Source: Hyphomicrobiales bacterium (GTDB lineage Bacteria; Pseudomonadota; Alphaproteobacteria; Rhizobiales; HXMU1428-3). From it: 41,524 nucleotides of DNA. This document shows, in pieces, positions 3,801 through 39,044 of this stretch (position 1 is its first letter; each line of letters opens with the position of its first letter). A program made the position numbers and the translations under genes. The DNA is taken from NCBI GenBank assembly GCA_017640685.1, contig JAEPQF010000014.1:1-41524 (forward strand), written 5' to 3'. Under the pieces are notes generated by a model, which was not told where the DNA came from, did not search any database, and saw only the letters and a list, made by a program, of their open reading frames with translations.

Positions 3801-4137
3801 TCGTGTTTTTTTCTCTTTCACGGCTGTTCCATGAGCGTAAGCTCTGGGTCTACGAGGTGTGGCATTAAATGCCGGACGCTTTTAATTGTGGTTTAGCTTG
3901 TCCTCTCTTTTAGTGCGGCTTCAGTTTCCTTTTTTGTTCTTCAGATGCCCAATAAGCATCCGCAAAAGCAACCGGGGTTTATTTTCTCTCACGTGCTGTA
4001 ACAAAAAAGCTGTCGCACTGCGAGGGCGCAGTGCTTTAGTTTGCCCATTATCAACCGCGCCATCACCTACATTTTTCGCTCTCAGTAGGTTCGTAGTTTT
4101 GGAGGAGCAAGTAGCTTGTTAAGTTATGTCTCCCGGA
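3801..4137. repeat. Palindromic element cluster 1 (hemY/cobL convergent gap)
   Basis: This 337-base gap between convergent genes is filled with short palindromes. At 3805-3848 is a copy of a second repeat (TTCACGGCT.TTCCATGAGC) also found at 12703-12743. GGCAT/ATGCC pair near 3861-3872. At 3913-3977 a nested unit occurs: an outer CTTCAG arm and GCAACCGGGG enclose a complete inner unit with GATGC (3944-3948) and GCATC (3956-3960). GCACTGCG/CGCAGTGC form a perfect hairpin at 4015-4034. A further unit lies at 4031-4060 (GTGC, TTTA, then a TTTGCCC... arm, ending CGCGC). A reading frame across 3886-4122 is an artefact of these repeats. No separate classical terminator with a T-tract was found. Confidence 0.75.
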
Positions 4138-12702: not shown

Positions 12703-12890
12703 TTTTTTCTCTCACGGCTATTCCATGAGCTGAAGCTCATGGGCCTGCATTTTTTGGTTGTGCTTTAGGTTGCCCATTTGCAACCGCACTATGCGGGGCT
12801 TGGCCCAGGCTGCGCTGGCGCTTCGCCATGTCCCTTAGCCCTTTTTTGTCGTTGTAGTTGTCCACTAACAACTGGACTAGGGCTGAGCTC
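12703..12890. repeat. Palindromic element cluster 2 (cobN-cobO gap)
   Basis: The second copy of the TTCACGGCT-like repeat, here with a perfect hairpin CCATGAGCT/AGCTCATGG (12723-12742), is followed by a textbook unit at 12760-12789: GTGC, unpaired TTTA, GGTTGC, loop CCATTT, GCAACC, GCAC. After a GGCG/CGCC hairpin (12817-12827) comes a nested structure. AGCCC (12837-12841) and GGGCT (12880-12884) enclose AGTTGT, loop CCACTA, ACAACT (12856-12873). No ORF is credible here. The cluster sits between co-oriented cobN and cobO and would be in any read-through message. Confidence 0.75.
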
Positions 12891-12946
12891 CTTCTTCGTA
12901 TAGTTTGTTATTTGTTTGTATTCAAAGTTAGCGTTGTAATATCAAA

Positions 12947-15900: not shown

Positions 15901-16852
15901 GTTTTGAGATTGCAAAGCTGGTGGTGTTGATGATGGTCGCTGGTTTTGCGTCTTTGAAAATGTCAGCGATGATGTCTTTGGCGACCTGATCTTTTAAGCT
16001 GCTTGCGAAAATGGGAAGTGGGTTTAGGCCTTCTTCTTGCAGATCTTTGATGAGTTGATCGATGGGCTCTAGATCACCTGATTGCAGTAAAGCGCGGTAG
16101 AAGGTGATTGAGCAAACTTGTTTGTACTTCAGTTGCCCACCAGCAACCGCACTATTGATTTTTGATAAATCCCAATGCGATTTAATATCATCAATTGATT
16201 TGATTGTGCTCCCTGGCCAATAGATACCGGCTTTAGGCAGTGGCTGAGCAGGGAGTGGTTTGGTGATTTTTTCAGGCTCGATAAGATGTGCGCAGTGGTT
16301 TAGGAAATTGCTGTAGTTCTCTGGGCCGCCTTCAACCAGGTATGACCAGAGCTGGTCTGTTGTTTCCCCGCTTATGGTTGAGTAGGCATCTAAGGTTTCA
16401 TCTTTATATGCGGAGCCAGACATAACCGCGAGCTTGATATTTTCACCTCTGCAAAGACGGGTGAGTTCATCAAGGCCATATTGCCAATAAGACGGGCCAC
16501 CAAGTACACGCACGATGATGAGTTTGGCGTGTTTTAAGGTTTGCTCGATATAAAGATCAACAGAGTAATTGTGATTGAGGTTGAGCAAATTGGCCAGCCT
16601 AAGAGATTCTTTTGGTCCCTTCAGTTGCTCTTTTTTATTGCCTTCAGATGCCGACAATGCATCCGGCTTAGCAACCGGGGCGTGATGACCGTTAGACTGA
16701 GTGCTTTGTCGAATCTGTGAATAGGCTTTTGCAAGGCCGGCAATTTCTGTGTCAGCAGATGTGAGCACGACGATATCGCCCGGCGTTTGGGCCAGGTCAA
16801 TTGGGTCTTTGCCGTCGTCTATACCGCCAGCTTGTGCCGTCAATAAATGCAA
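12947..16852 (-). CDS. cobN: Cobaltochelatase large subunit CobN, with two in-frame repeat insertions
   Basis: Large subunit of the ATP-dependent aerobic cobaltochelatase (with CobS/CobT chelatase subunits elsewhere) that inserts Co2+ into hydrogenobyrinic acid a,c-diamide. Motifs: HMGKHGNLEWLPGK (near residue 595) and GGDDLAQALAFIGTRP to PRVDLLLRISGFFRD (near 950). The start is proposed as TTG at 16852: GGAG lies 6 bases upstream and the protein then begins MHLLTAQ, as usual for CobN. The ATG at 16864 contributes that GGAG and would give 1305 residues. Two palindromic elements lie in frame, at residues 58-79 and 234-243, in segments that look like surface loops between conserved blocks (before SLRLANLLNL, and before ITFYRALLQSGD). 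Protein function is probably retained, because the flanking motifs are intact. cobO and cobQ follow. Confidence 0.94.
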   Translation of the reverse strand: MHLLTAQAGGIDDGKDPIDLAQTPGDIVVLTSADTEIAGLAKAYSQIRQSTQSNGHHAPVAKPDALSASEGNKKEQLKGPKESLRLANLLNLNHNYSVDLYIEQTLKHAKLIIVRVLGGPSYWQYGLDELTRLCRGENIKLAVMSGSAYKDETLDAYSTISGETTDQLWSYLVEGGPENYSNFLNHCAHLIEPEKITKPLPAQPLPKAGIYWPGSTIKSIDDIKSHWDLSKINSAVAGGQLKYKQVCSITFYRALLQSGDLEPIDQLIKDLQEEGLNPLPIFASSLKDQVAKDIIADIFKDAKPATIINTTSFAISKPGTDWQGTILDRSETPVFQAILSGSNKDTWAENPRGLISRDIAMNVTLPEIDGRITTRAISFKSDFGRDENVETSLVGHKAEPSRTKFVAQLATSWTKLQNTKIENRKVALILSNYPSNDGRIANGVGLDTPAGTIKLLEAMKKEGYELNSIPETGDELIKKLQHATADKSKWHHYSLTNYLKAWNTLDETFKDEIVDRWGLPEKDPSFITEDNSFLIRTISLGGIIVGVQPGRGSGLDAKLSHHDATIPPTHEYLAFYFWLRDQFKMDAIIHMGKHGNLEWLPGKALALSKSCAPEAILGPTPHIYPFIVNDPGEGAQAKRRTNAVIIDHLTPPLTRAESYGPLKDLECLVDEYYEAAGVDPRRTKLLGEDIINLAQSMGLSKDCDIKDTDCDDTKLQKLDNFLCELKELQIRDGLHIFGEAPKNEQKTNLLLALTRLPRGEIRKEEGEIISTAKTEHQSILRALANDLCLNFDPLITEMATPWQGPKPEVLQTITDQSWRTNGDTVERLEILAEQLVNGTHEPDTDWKETSPVLDYIKTHLSPLLEDCASKELDGVLRALGGKFIEPGPSGAPTRGRLDVLPSGRNFYTIDNRTIPTETAWRLGKQSAETVIKAYTQANGEWPKQIALSAWGTSNMRTGGDDLAQALAFIGTRPTWDSASRRVTGFEIIPLSELNRPRVDLLLRISGFFRDAFPAQIDLLQSAINAVAELDENENANPLRAAYLKRKATLQKEGLEEPVADRRAKARIFGSAHMSYGAGLKDMIHQGQWTDREELADQYIKASSYTYGQAKENETDGKEALEHFKALLKSTNLVVHNQDTREFDILDSEDFYQFEGGLSASVESVSGKAPEIYHNDHSNPENPKVQTLSEEIAKIVRGRAANPKWIKSIQRHGSKGASEILATVTNLSAFASLTNAVEEHHFESLFEAYLVDEEVREFLQTSNKPAMEEIAKQFGQAIERGLWKPKRNSAYHYLETLYSKAE
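16124..16152. repeat. Palindromic element inside cobN (single)
   Basis: Unit GTAC, unpaired TTCA, GTTGC, loop CCACCA, GCAAC, C, GCAC. On the coding (minus) strand it reads in frame as AVAGGQLKYK, at CobN residues about 234-243. The same frame (GGG CAA CTG AAG) is used by the copy at the C-terminus of the secreted protease (37818-37845), giving the shared peptide GGQLK. Confidence 0.85.
16617..16679. repeat. Nested palindromic element inside cobN
   Basis: The outer unit pairs CCC, GTTGC (16624-16628) with GCAAC (16671-16675), GGG. In its loop lies a T-run and a complete inner unit: GCC, TTCA, GATGC (16647-16651), loop, GCATC (16659-16663), C, GGC. The 63 bases are exactly 21 codons, so the frame of cobN is preserved. 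They encode a hydrophilic loop (for example SASEGNKKEQLKG) between the AGLAKAYSQ and SLRLANLLNL blocks. Confidence 0.85.
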
Positions 16853-16864
16853 AAAAAGCTCCAT

Positions 16865-17171
16865 TTTAGTTGCGCTTCAGATGCCCACAAAGCATCCGCG
16901 CTATTTCGAGTTTGAGGGCGTTAAGGCTGAATTTTTAACCCCTCAAATATGTCTTATATTCCACGGGCCTAAAAATTCACCCTTGCCTACTCACGAACAA
17001 AATCTGAAACTTTTTTGGATCGAGCTTTGAGGCTGGAAAATAGAAAGATTAGGTTTAATTGATAGGTGGAAGTTTGTCTATTGTATAGCATGGATAATTT
17101 TGATTAATCTTGAGGGTAAAGTTTTGCCATTTTAAGGTGATTATATACATGGAAATAAGAAGGGTAATTAA
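16865..17171. other. cobN upstream gap with palindromic element and hairpin
   Basis: A single repeat unit fills 16872-16901 (GCGC, TTCA, GATGC, loop CCACAAA, GCATC, C, GCGC), within 20 bases of the proposed cobN start. A second strong inverted repeat lies at 16912-16946: TTGAGGG, a bulged C, GTTAA, paired with TTAAC and CCCTCAA. Both would be in the 5' leader of cobN if transcription starts upstream of them. I looked for the conserved B12-box (GCCACTG) on both strands here and did not find it. The remainder, to 17171, is AT-rich and must also hold the promoter of the plus-strand gene at 17172. Confidence 0.6.
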
Positions 17172-26443: not shown

Positions 26444-26658
26444 GCGCTTTAGATGTCTCTTTTTAGTGCGCCTTTAGGTTGCCCACAAGCAACCGGCGCG
26501 AAGCATCCGCAGATTTTCTTTTGTGCTTCAGATGTCTTTTTTAATACCCCTTCAGATTGCCCATTAGCAACCGGGGCTAAGCATCCGTACATTTTTATTA
26601 GCGCTTTAGACACTTTCTTATCTCCCTTTCGGTTTTCTAATAAAAACCGATCTAAAGC
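26444..26658. repeat. Palindromic element cluster 3, three nested units upstream of murJ
   Basis: This is the main content of the 401-base gap between murJ and oxyR. Unit 1 (26444-26510): outer GCGC, TTTA, GATGTC and GCATC, CGC enclose an inner unit GCGCC, TTTA, GGTTGC, CCACAA, GCAACC, GGCGC. Unit 2 (26523-26589): outer GTGC, TTCA, GATGTC and GCATC enclose CCCC, TTCA, GATTGC, loop, GCAACC, GGGG. Unit 3 (26603-26658): GCTTTAGA/TCTAAAGC enclose CGGTTTT, CTAATA, AAAACCG. An open frame across 26453-26785 is produced by the repeats (it would contain PQATGAKHP and PLATGAKHP) and is not called as a gene. The rest, 26659-26825, shows nothing distinct. Confidence 0.85.
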
Positions 26659-27716: not shown

Positions 27717-28046
27717 CAGTCTTTCTTATCATAAATGATGAAAAAATCAATTAGACCTTATAATACGATTTGCGCATGATTTCATCATTAATAATTATCA
27801 ATTGGTGATTTCAAATTTTTTATTTGAGAGTGATGAGGTTCTTTAAATATGAAGACACTCCTTTTGAATTCAAAAAGAGTGTCTTCATATTTTTGGTTTC
27901 AATTTGTCCAGGACATTTATTTAAAAAGTCTCGCCCTGTTTGTAGGTGATCATTATTTTGCGTTAATAGAGGTATAATGAGATCAGGGCGAGATCAGGGG
28001 GTAAATCATGGAACTTTAAGCCTTAAAGACTTATTTGTTCTTCTTA
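27717..28046. other. Intergenic region upstream of oxyR with two strong inverted repeats
   Basis: A 330-base gap without a credible ORF. The first part is AT-rich and should contain the oxyR promoter. Two inverted repeats follow: a nearly perfect palindrome at 27845-27893 and 10-base arms TCTCGCCCTG/CAGGGCGAGA at 27929-27938 and 27984-27993. Between the latter arms, GATCATTAT and ATAATGAGATC can pair further with a two-base bulge. It also holds a TATAAT sequence, without a clear -35 box. Both could be parts of small RNAs or 3' ends of the gene at 28047. Confidence 0.5.
27845..27893 (+). terminator. Long hairpin followed by T-run (possible terminator)
   Basis: AATATGAAGACACTC pairs with GAGTGTCTTCATATT, and the loop CTTTTGAATTCAAAAA is itself nearly palindromic, so the whole is a 22-base stem with one mismatch. 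TTTTT follows on the plus strand. There is no annotated plus-strand gene upstream, so if it terminates transcription in that direction the transcript would be a short RNA starting within 27720-27840. On the minus strand the T-run is weaker, but it could also end the transcript from 28047-28793. Confidence 0.55.
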
Positions 28047-31862: not shown

Positions 31863-31874
31863 TTTAATCTCCAT

Positions 31875-32110
31875 TTTAGTTTGTGCTTCAGATGCCCACT
31901 AGGCATCCGCACTGTTTGTTTGCGCTTCAGGTTGCCTTTATTTGTTTTAGATGCCCACAAAGCATCCGCAAGTTGCAACCGCGCTGTTTAAGTAATGCTT
32001 CAGATGTCTTCTCTGTGTTTCAAAAGCCCTACTGAGCATACGTGAGAAGCACCTTCGCTGTTTGCTAAATGTTTCAGACGAATTGCTTCGTCTTGATGTG
32101 GTAAATTTAA
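31875..32110. repeat. Palindromic element cluster 4 upstream of the His/Tyr-rich gene
   Basis: A simple unit at 31883-31912 reads GTGC, TTCA, GATGCC, CACTA, GGCATC, C, GCAC. A nested unit follows at 31922-31984: outer GCGC, TTCA, GGTTGC and GCAACC, GCGC enclose TTTTAG-ATGC-CCACAAA-GCATC. Degenerate copies continue to about 32060, and AGACGAA-TTGC-TTCGTCT forms a perfect hairpin at 32076-32093. The remaining gap to the next ORF (32111-32411) is described separately. Confidence 0.8.
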
Positions 32111-37669: not shown

Positions 37670-37845
37670 AGTTACCACTTTTTTTGACGTTCCTTTAGGT
37701 TACTCACCGGTAACCGTTACGCCAAGCACGCTTTTAATTGTTCTTCAGTTGCTGGTTTTTTTAGTTGTTCCTTTAGGTTACCCACCAGTAACCGTCACTA
37801 AAACCGTGCTCCTAATTGTGCTTCAGTTGCCCACCAACAACCGCA
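37670..37845. repeat. Palindromic element cluster 5 (ilvA/protease convergent gap)
   Basis: Three clear units. At 37698-37715: GGTTAC, TCACCG, GTAACC. At 37776-37793: GGTTAC, CCACCA, GTAACC, itself inside a larger structure where GGTTTT (37754-37759) pairs with AAAACC (37800-37805) and AGCACG (37725-37730) with CGTGCT (37805-37810). At 37818-37845: GTGC, TTCA, GTTG, loop, CAAC, CGCA. The last lies in the coding sequence of the protease. TTTA or TTCA precedes each inner stem on the plus strand, as in all other clusters. Confidence 0.85.
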
Positions 37846-39044
37846 TTATTCAATTTGTCGAGTAGTTCTTTTGTTGGTAGGCCGATGGGTGTTAGGTTCA
37901 TTTTTTTCTCAAAGGCATAGATGGCTCTTTTGGTTTGCTTACCAAACTGACCGTCGATCTTACCTCTGTAAAGTTTCAGGGATTTTAGGCGTTCTTGAAC
38001 TTGCTTAAATTGATGAATATTTGTTAGGAGAGTTTCTTTTTGAAATCTCTCTAGGCCTTTTAGGAAAATTTTTGGCTGGACGGCAATGTTTGTTTCTTTG
38101 CCTGTTTTTAGTTTTTTGCGGCTGATGATTTTTCCTGTGAACCGATTGCGCCTGATGCGGAAATGCTCATATTTTAATGAGCCTAGATTAATACCAACGA
38201 CTTTATAATCCGCGCCTTTTTTAACAATAATTGGAGAACCAGATGAGCCTTTGAATGCGTCGCATGTGTGAGGCAAGAGCACGGCTTCTCTTATCATTTT
38301 TCTGCGCTGTTTTTTCATGAAAAAGGTTTTGTTATTGCGCGAGCGAATGCGGCACTTTTTTGAGTAGAGCCGCTCTGACATGTCTTTGTCGCCATGGTAA
38401 CCAATCATGAAGACATCATTCTTCTTTGCGGCTTTTTGTATCTCTCTTATTTTGGAGTTGCTGAATTTAAGTGTTCGTCCTTTGCAGACAGAATGGATTA
38501 ATTTCGTGAAAGCCCAATCTTGTTTTTGTGAATTGAGATTTCGTGCTGCAGCATAATTTCCTGAATAGATAGAGAGGCCCGGCATTTTTTGATGGACATA
38601 TTCCGGATAAGAAATGCGAGGTTTGTATTTGTGATTAAGAGGTGATTTTGTAAGTGCAGGGAGGACAAACATTGTCTTTGCTAAATTGAGGCGTTTGCCA
38701 ACTGTGGGGTTTCGTACAATACAGTGAGCGTTAGTTGCAACTATATTTGGTGCCACACAAAAGGCGGTGCAACGCCATCCTCTTTTACCTGGTTGGCCGA
38801 TCACTCCAACACCAGCGCCGAGCTGGTGGAATTTTTCAGGTAAGCTGGTGCGGTTATCTTTTCCAAGAACCGCTATTTTTTTCACGTGGTCTTGAGATAA
38901 TCCGTTCGGTGTTTTGATAGAGATATTTGAGCTGAGGGATTTTGCGTGGGATGAATTTGAGGAGGAGTTAACTGTTAAAAGACCAAAAAATAAAAGAAAA
39001 AAGGCAAGGCTGATTTTGCTTGTCTTAGATGTTTTATTTTTCAT
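37812..39044 (-). CDS. Secreted trypsin-like serine protease with peptidoglycan-binding domain
   Basis: A 410-residue exported protease. Signal peptide: basic KNKTSKTSK then ISLAFFLLFFGLLTV, with cleavage likely near AKS. The chymotrypsin-fold catalytic triad is visible: His in VAPNIVATNAHCIV (about residue 104), Asp in QKQDWAFTKL (about 175) and Ser in CDAFKGSSGSPIIV (about 267). A C-terminal PG_binding_1-like domain follows (VQERLKSLKLYRGKIDGQFGKQTKRAIY). The last 11 residues (NAVVGGQLKHN) come from a palindromic element, and the stop is at the edge of that element, so the native C-terminus may have been replaced. GGAG lies 8 bases before the ATG. It probably acts in the periplasm or at the cell wall; substrate unknown. 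Confidence 0.88.
   Translation of the reverse strand: MKNKTSKTSKISLAFFLLFFGLLTVNSSSNSSHAKSLSSNISIKTPNGLSQDHVKKIAVLGKDNRTSLPEKFHQLGAGVGVIGQPGKRGWRCTAFCVAPNIVATNAHCIVRNPTVGKRLNLAKTMFVLPALTKSPLNHKYKPRISYPEYVHQKMPGLSIYSGNYAAARNLNSQKQDWAFTKLIHSVCKGRTLKFSNSKIREIQKAAKKNDVFMIGYHGDKDMSERLYSKKCRIRSRNNKTFFMKKQRRKMIREAVLLPHTCDAFKGSSGSPIIVKKGADYKVVGINLGSLKYEHFRIRRNRFTGKIISRKKLKTGKETNIAVQPKIFLKGLERFQKETLLTNIHQFKQVQERLKSLKLYRGKIDGQFGKQTKRAIYAFEKKMNLTPIGLPTKELLDKLNNAVVGGQLKHN

Follow-up and report, generated by a model that had tools for sequence, protein, structure and literature searches.

The window analysed here, a stretch of 41,524 nt from a Hyphomicrobiales bacterium, carries 13 copies of a ~45-nt hairpin repeat, every one assigned to the + strand by a covariance model and several seated in the loop of another hairpin. 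The hairpin is mobile, or at least quickly gained and lost, keeps to a single strand, follows a run of T residues, and is found in hairpin loops and at T-tracts. We favor, with a probability of roughly 0.6, the reading that such units are small mobile hairpin repeats that insert at T-tracts and in the loops of hairpins on the lagging-strand template, the loop often being lost or replaced on the way; that the template is single-stranded and folded at the time of entry is what we infer.

Read 5′ to 3′, a unit consists of a T-run (mostly 3–7 T), AGT(T/G), stem X, a TTCA/TTTA(G) tag, the inner stem Y (GATGC or GTTGC), a CCACNNN loop, Y′, one bulged C, and X′. The consensus was drawn from 39 diverse copies, whose alignment also served for the covariance model (R1). 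Within these 39 copies 91.5% of cells pair, double-sided changes in the stems number 75 (24 in shuffles), and the covariation score is 0.473 vs. 0.142 in shuffles, with both the X and the Y stems covarying. T accounts for 73–88% of letters at positions –12 to –9 ahead of the tag, and the longest T-run preceding a unit has a median length of 5, compared to 2 in control DNA. At two mismatches or fewer, TTYAGATGCCCACNNNGCATCCG matched 173 times in the host genome (3.50 Mb) and the reversed pattern not once. The covariance model assigned at least 157 copies to the host genome. Six congeners have from 39 to at least 159 each, and G001 has two; as ~150 candidates were scored per genome, the upper counts are floors. 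Outside the genus, just three of 150 genomes sampled across the order gave model matches (1–3 each), and an exact-pattern scan additionally placed the repeat in Filomicrobium and in a handful of further Hyphomicrobiales. Relatives of the host in named collections are the Hyphomicrobiales MAGs Methyloligella sp. DHS20C07, OFTM213, OFTM288, and DHS20C08. Most units are intergenic, while now and then one lies in frame within a gene; they occur singly, as tandem arrays with a period of 34–50 nt, in loops of sister units, and in loops of other hairpin repeats. An Rfam search of the repeat yielded no match.

The initial annotation had listed eight places in the window where one complete unit would occupy the loop of another. 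Four are clear unit-in-unit nests, all on the + strand, whose outer and inner arms match (two with one G–T pair) and whose inner unit is led by a T-run, as had been proposed. The nests at 26444–26510 (R1; DNA fold z –2.6) and 26523–26589 (R1 and arm matching) share the outer arms GATGT/GCATC and enclose a GCGCC, GGTTGC unit (26457–26502) and a CCCC/GGGG unit (26535–26580), respectively. The nest at 31922–31984 (R1 and arm matching) has outer arms GCGC..GGTTGC/GCAACC..GCGC around an ATGC unit (31930–31975) and is the tandem neighbor of a simple unit (31871–31916, +, R1 55 bits), and the fourth, at 16617–16679, is supported by nested arms, R1, and protein alignment (see below). Two further nests on the same strand are decayed, with mispaired outer arms, yet recognizable: 3913–3977 (outer arms GTTTC/GCAAC; inner unit 3924–3969, R1 41.3 bits, E 1e-9) and 37725–37810 (outer arms GTTGC/AAAAC; inner unit 37756–37801, R1 43 bits), the latter preceded by a simple GGTTAC/GTAACC unit (37678–37723, +, 35.7 bits) and followed by another simple unit (37806–37850, +, 40.7 bits). 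At 12837–12884 (+), a diverged unit (GTTGT/ACAAC) does lie in a loop, albeit that of the third hairpin of a larger repeat and not that of a sister unit. The eighth place, 26603–26658 (+), is a doubtful member: a hairpin in a hairpin, with an 8-bp GCTTTAGA/TCTAAAGC stem enclosing CGGTTTT/AAAACCG, that lacks the TTCA..C signature, a T-run at the junction, and any R1 match. Elsewhere in the window, 27845–27892 forms a near-perfect 48-nt palindrome with 24-nt arms and no spacer that is devoid of the repeat-unit signature.

Two energy-style unit parsers proved either too loose or too strict, giving high mirror controls or overlooking known units. Nests and units were therefore scored with a token test, a test for enclosing arms in which flanks were swapped, and the covariance model. 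As the token test is biased at loci picked by the nested pattern (L140–L180), unbiased counts were taken from two congeneric genomes, G002 and G004, and the window only. There, 18 of 190 units possessed enclosing arms scoring at least 7, compared to 5.2 (maximum 10) when right flanks were swapped between units, and 9 of 190 scored at least 8 (1.5 after swapping, maximum 4). The token scan counted 14 nests in G002 and G004. A strict nested pattern was present in five of seven congeners (nine in G004, six in G002, four in G003, three in G007, and one in G005) and 19 times in the host genome, with none in the backward control; G003 also harbors a three-level nest (L148:1563–1661). By a rough estimate that leaves aside the copying of whole nests, about one unit would land by chance in the ~190 loops, each 6 nt long, that the ~197 kb of non-coding DNA contain. 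The folding energy of single nests is only modest; the case for nesting is built on arm matching and covariation.

Comparison of relatives, proposed at the outset as the way to check for insertion, was possible between G002 and G004, which are colinear over ~400 kb at ~90% identity. At one orthologous site both states were found: outer-only in G004 (L226:10179–10223; TTGCGTTTTAGGTTG-CCCACCAG-CAACCGCAC) and nested in G002 (L217:18364–18442; TTGCGCTTTAGGTTG-GCTTTTCTTTGCTTCAAATGCCCACAAGGCATCCGCAATGAG-CAACCGCGC), a difference that may be a gain or a loss. In G004, a simple copy adjoins a nested copy of one and the same unit (L236, from 5955). The hairpin of another repeat has a unit in its loop in G002 and the loop AAAAC at the orthologous site in G004 (L123:16540–16595 vs. 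L126:17210–17230). In all three cases the loop letters were replaced. Most nests lack the outer CCAC, which a minority retain ahead of the inner T-run; plain insertion would not leave CCAC missing, and the event thus entails either replacement or partial deletion of the loop. In the cleanest filled/empty pair, G004 has a 34-nt unit of which G002 shows no trace (CCCT[TTTATGCTTCAGGTTGCCCACTAGCAACCGCATT]CTCAC vs. CCCTCTCAC). Target-site duplications, which had also been called for, were not seen in this pair, nor does its unfilled site contain a T-run; some other unfilled sites do have pre-existing T-runs, including that of a terminator (g4c4 78345; also L180).

Turnover between the two species is high, with 35 units shared and 30 unshared in G002 and 35 and 24 in G004, i.e. 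~45% unshared in either. Plain tandem duplications also differ between them, some nests are present or absent as whole blocks (g4c4 78352, 123647), and some identical nests are shared by descent, so that certain composites may have been copied whole. The counterpart of the 37725 nest is one simple unit in G002 and no unit in G004; that of the 31922 nest is a simple unit in G002 and, in G004, a simple unit plus a different nest. Because an outer-only state exists and the inner sequences of nests vary (ATGC, TTGC, and TTTC types), nests do not behave as units that always arrive with a fixed interior, and insertion is well supported by the sequence comparisons. The suggestion that loops are preferred targets is supported by the outer-only/nested ortholog pair, the side-by-side copies, the varied inner sequences, and the filled loops of unrelated repeats; the choice is, however, wider than the sister-unit loop first envisaged, as units also land in T-tracts, in the T-runs of terminators, and in the loops of different repeats.

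Units are oriented almost uniformly. Among 144 model matches in 823 kb of G002, 140 lay on one strand and four on the other, the majority strand being the G-rich one, and in G004 unit orientation tracks the GC skew of each contig where that skew is clear. Long contigs were used for strand assignment, as the GC skew of 3–8-kb loci is too noisy; within 8-kb loci, 184 units shared one orientation and four opposed it. The bias persists irrespective of how the flanking genes are directed (++, 37:2; --, 78:1; +-, 33:3; -+, 18:2), arguing that it is not a transcript-level feature. Judged from the usual sign of bacterial GC skew, with the polarity itself read from skew, the G-rich strand would correspond to the lagging-strand template.

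Other hairpin repeats take part in this traffic. The larger repeat mentioned above (repeat B, TCTCTCACGGCTATTCC...CTCCTTCTTCG) comprises at least three hairpins, has units in several of its loops, and is found at 12708–12900 in the window as well as at many places in G002 (C1/C2); its strand polarity is that of the unit (28 vs. 2 pattern matches in the G002 stretches). In the window copy (about 12708–12900), one loop contains a simple unit (12748–12793, +, R1 51.2 bits), and repeat B copies without it exist; the loop of hairpin 3 (TTAGCCC/GGGCTGA; CAGCCCGAAGTGGGCTG in uninterrupted copies) contains the diverged unit at 12837–12884. The equivalent position is likewise filled in G002 (g2c1 289065). 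At oriented position 64256 of G002 C2, the unit in the hairpin 3 loop is inverted, against the general polarity, as inversion of the loop would give. A third repeat, a T-run followed by GATCAGCTTATCCGTACTCG...GGGCTGATC (GATCAGC...GCTGATC), sits in the loop of repeat B hairpin 2 (g2c2 9260, 41461; g2c1 29925, 90108 in G002). A further intergenic repeat, TAGAGCAT...CCTAAAACCGGTATCCACTTTTAGGTGACACGCTCTA (G004 C4, oriented 88311 and 102850), varies in presence from species to species, and small units lie in one of its internal loops.

Three places in the window tie the unit to cobN, the cobaltochelatase gene encoded on the – strand. Two are in-frame inserts on the + strand that would be translated: a simple unit at 16112–16156 (R1 44.5 bits; protein alignment), adding INSAVAGGQLKY, and the nest at 16617–16679, adding about 31 residues. 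The former site is unit-free in G002 and G004 and has a larger in-frame insert in G003; the nest is common to the host and G003, with no unit there in G002, G004, G007, G001, or G006. Such hairpins can thus turn into protein sequence. The third place, where the gene begins on its 5′ side, carries a simple unit (16860–16905, +, R1 57.7 bits; alignment). G001, G005, and G007 have a related unit with different inner-stem letters at the orthologous position, G001 despite almost no other units in that genome. Strong conservation at 16734–16860 had raised the suspicion of a conserved RNA upstream of cobN, but the stretch turned out to be the 5′ coding end of the gene itself.

According to the favored reading, a new unit would enter the lagging-strand template during its single-stranded, folded state, with a preference for T-tracts and for hairpin loops, which are unpaired; the target loop would often be lost or replaced on entry; nesting would then be a by-product of target choice and not itself selected. 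The agent might be a single-strand transposase, lost or unrecognized, or else replication and repair might work on a hairpin, either an oligonucleotide or an RNA, whose A-tail lets it prime on T-tracts. In its fully enzyme-free form the latter idea is tentative and, in our judgment, unlikely: A-tailed hairpin fragments of DNA or RNA would anneal to T-tracts and loops of the lagging-strand template and be taken up as fork primers or patches. If true, it would explain why several unrelated hairpin repeats of one genome yield same-strand, T-run-led, self-nesting copies. A transposase of the RAYT type (IS200/IS605) that moved a REP-like element and has since been lost from most genomes of the genus is similarly doubtful, even though polarity, hairpin, and T-run all fit IS200/IS605 behavior (PMC6006769). 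The corresponding domain (PF01797, Y1_Tnp) was found in G004 alone of eight genomes and not in G000, G001, G002 (99% complete), G003, G005, G006, or G007, and no unit was found on the two G004 loci examined for it; moreover, the unit tag differs from GTAG and units do not form head-to-head pairs. Other candidates are equally patchy, with RVT_1 (PF00078) found in G000 and G005 only and IS110 (PF01548) in G002 only, so that none of the three is common to the unit-rich genomes, namely G000, G002, G003, G004, and G007; in G002, unit-rich and the most studied, no Y1/RAYT transposase and no reverse transcriptase was found.

Local slippage or template switching at hairpins, whereby the fork duplicates arms and whole units into tandems, half-units, and nests without any transposition, would account for the tandem arrays, the tandem duplications that differ between G002 and G004, and a fork-related polarity. 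It could likewise produce the relics at L016, L037, L046, and L049, where a 5′ half-unit precedes a complete, same-type unit, as though either the outer 3′ arm had been lost or the 5′ half duplicated. Yet the 34-nt case and other lone units at sites unrelated to one another, the in-frame cobN units, and the units in loops of other repeats go unexplained by slippage, which we regard as an improbable cause. Still less probable is that the two-storey form is the element being copied and simple units its decay products. Many nests do follow a common layout (GTTGC-T-run-(G)TGC-TTCAGATGCC...GCATCCGCA-A-GCAACC) and some differ between species as whole blocks. However, nests are far rarer than simple units where the DNA was sampled without bias, they vary in X stem, in linker, and in the types of their inner and outer members, and reversed nests occur, with ATGC outside TTGC. 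That the two-storey form is itself a functional unit, the other option raised by the initial annotation, also found no support, as inner and outer members differ among nests and several nests are lineage-specific. A regulatory RNA or terminator selected at gene ends is already disfavored and very improbable: the mostly intergenic location, the strong compensatory pairing, and the one unit position that the genus conserves, at the 5′ end of cobN, would suit it, whereas orientation ignores gene direction, ~45% of units are unshared between close species, and Rfam offers no match. Intrinsic terminators, in addition, have their T-run after a hairpin facing the gene end, while here it lies 5′ of the hairpin.

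For the reading that we prefer, IS200/IS605-type single-strand transposition is the nearest enzymatic model, and uptake of A-tailed hairpin primers the nearest enzyme-free one. Insertion of IS200/IS605 members is directed to the lagging-strand template and makes use of hairpins together with a fixed tetranucleotide on the 5′ side (PMC6006769). The likeness lies in the orientation bias of the unit to the lagging-strand template, with the strand assigned from GC skew; as to targets, the clean 34-nt case has no duplication, a T-run is usual but not constant in unfilled sites, and the Y1 HUH transposase is found in only one of the eight genomes (G004). GTAG REPs and REPINs with their RAYTs (PMC2817692, PMC3116915, PMC6006769) are likewise small hairpins with a 5′ tag, many copies, and a proposed single-strand mobility. 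Their GTAG/GTGG tag is replaced by TTCA/TTTA in the unit, inverted pairs are missing (140:4 in one orientation), no RAYT is found in the richest genomes, and the polarity of the unit is near-absolute. DDE-type MITEs differ in having terminal inverted repeats and target-site duplications; the 5′ end of the unit is a T-run, with no duplication in the clean case.

Rickettsia palindromic elements are short palindromes able to sit in frame within genes. The two in-frame cobN inserts resemble them in this respect; these elements are longer than the unit and are not known to nest in themselves with fork polarity.

In host group and in the absence of a found transposase, the nearest known system is that of the CGTC REPs, short, high-copy alphaproteobacterial hairpins that are mainly intergenic, with some intragenic copies and some dimers inside other palindromes (Di Nocera 2013, PMC3733652). 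They carry their CGTC tag on an uninterrupted 8–9 bp stem and form head-to-head dimers, whereas in the unit TTCA(G) and a bulged C divide the pairing into two stems of 5 bp, and its copies show same-orientation tandems, nests, and replication-strand polarity; some unit copies end in CCGTCGC, on the 3′ side only. Mitochondrial GC clusters and double-hairpin elements are likewise small, GC-rich hairpins for whose spread no enzyme is known; different strains can carry them alone or merged at homologous sites (PMC4478555, PMC2800124), and in this respect the yeast clusters (PMC4478555) come closest. They are flanked by short duplications (AG/ACT), while the bacterial unit shows none and adds a T-run and strand polarity. 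Literature searches on strand-biased palindromic repeats and on short-patch illegitimate recombination returned no such repeat and no usable paper, respectively, and the spread of transposase-less REP-like hairpins among alphaproteobacteria still awaits an explanation (PMC3733652). Near-absolute polarity, the T-run, filled and unfilled sites, and loop-in-loop targeting render the mechanism of the present unit testable and point to the single-stranded lagging-strand template as substrate. Well over 100 hairpin copies in this bacterium and its close relatives, almost all facing one way relative to chromosome copying and often nested in loops, suggest an unrecognized route by which short DNA multiplies, and since CGTC REPs and yeast GC clusters differ from it in tag, pairing style, and orientation, the unit stands apart among small palindromic mobile repeats.
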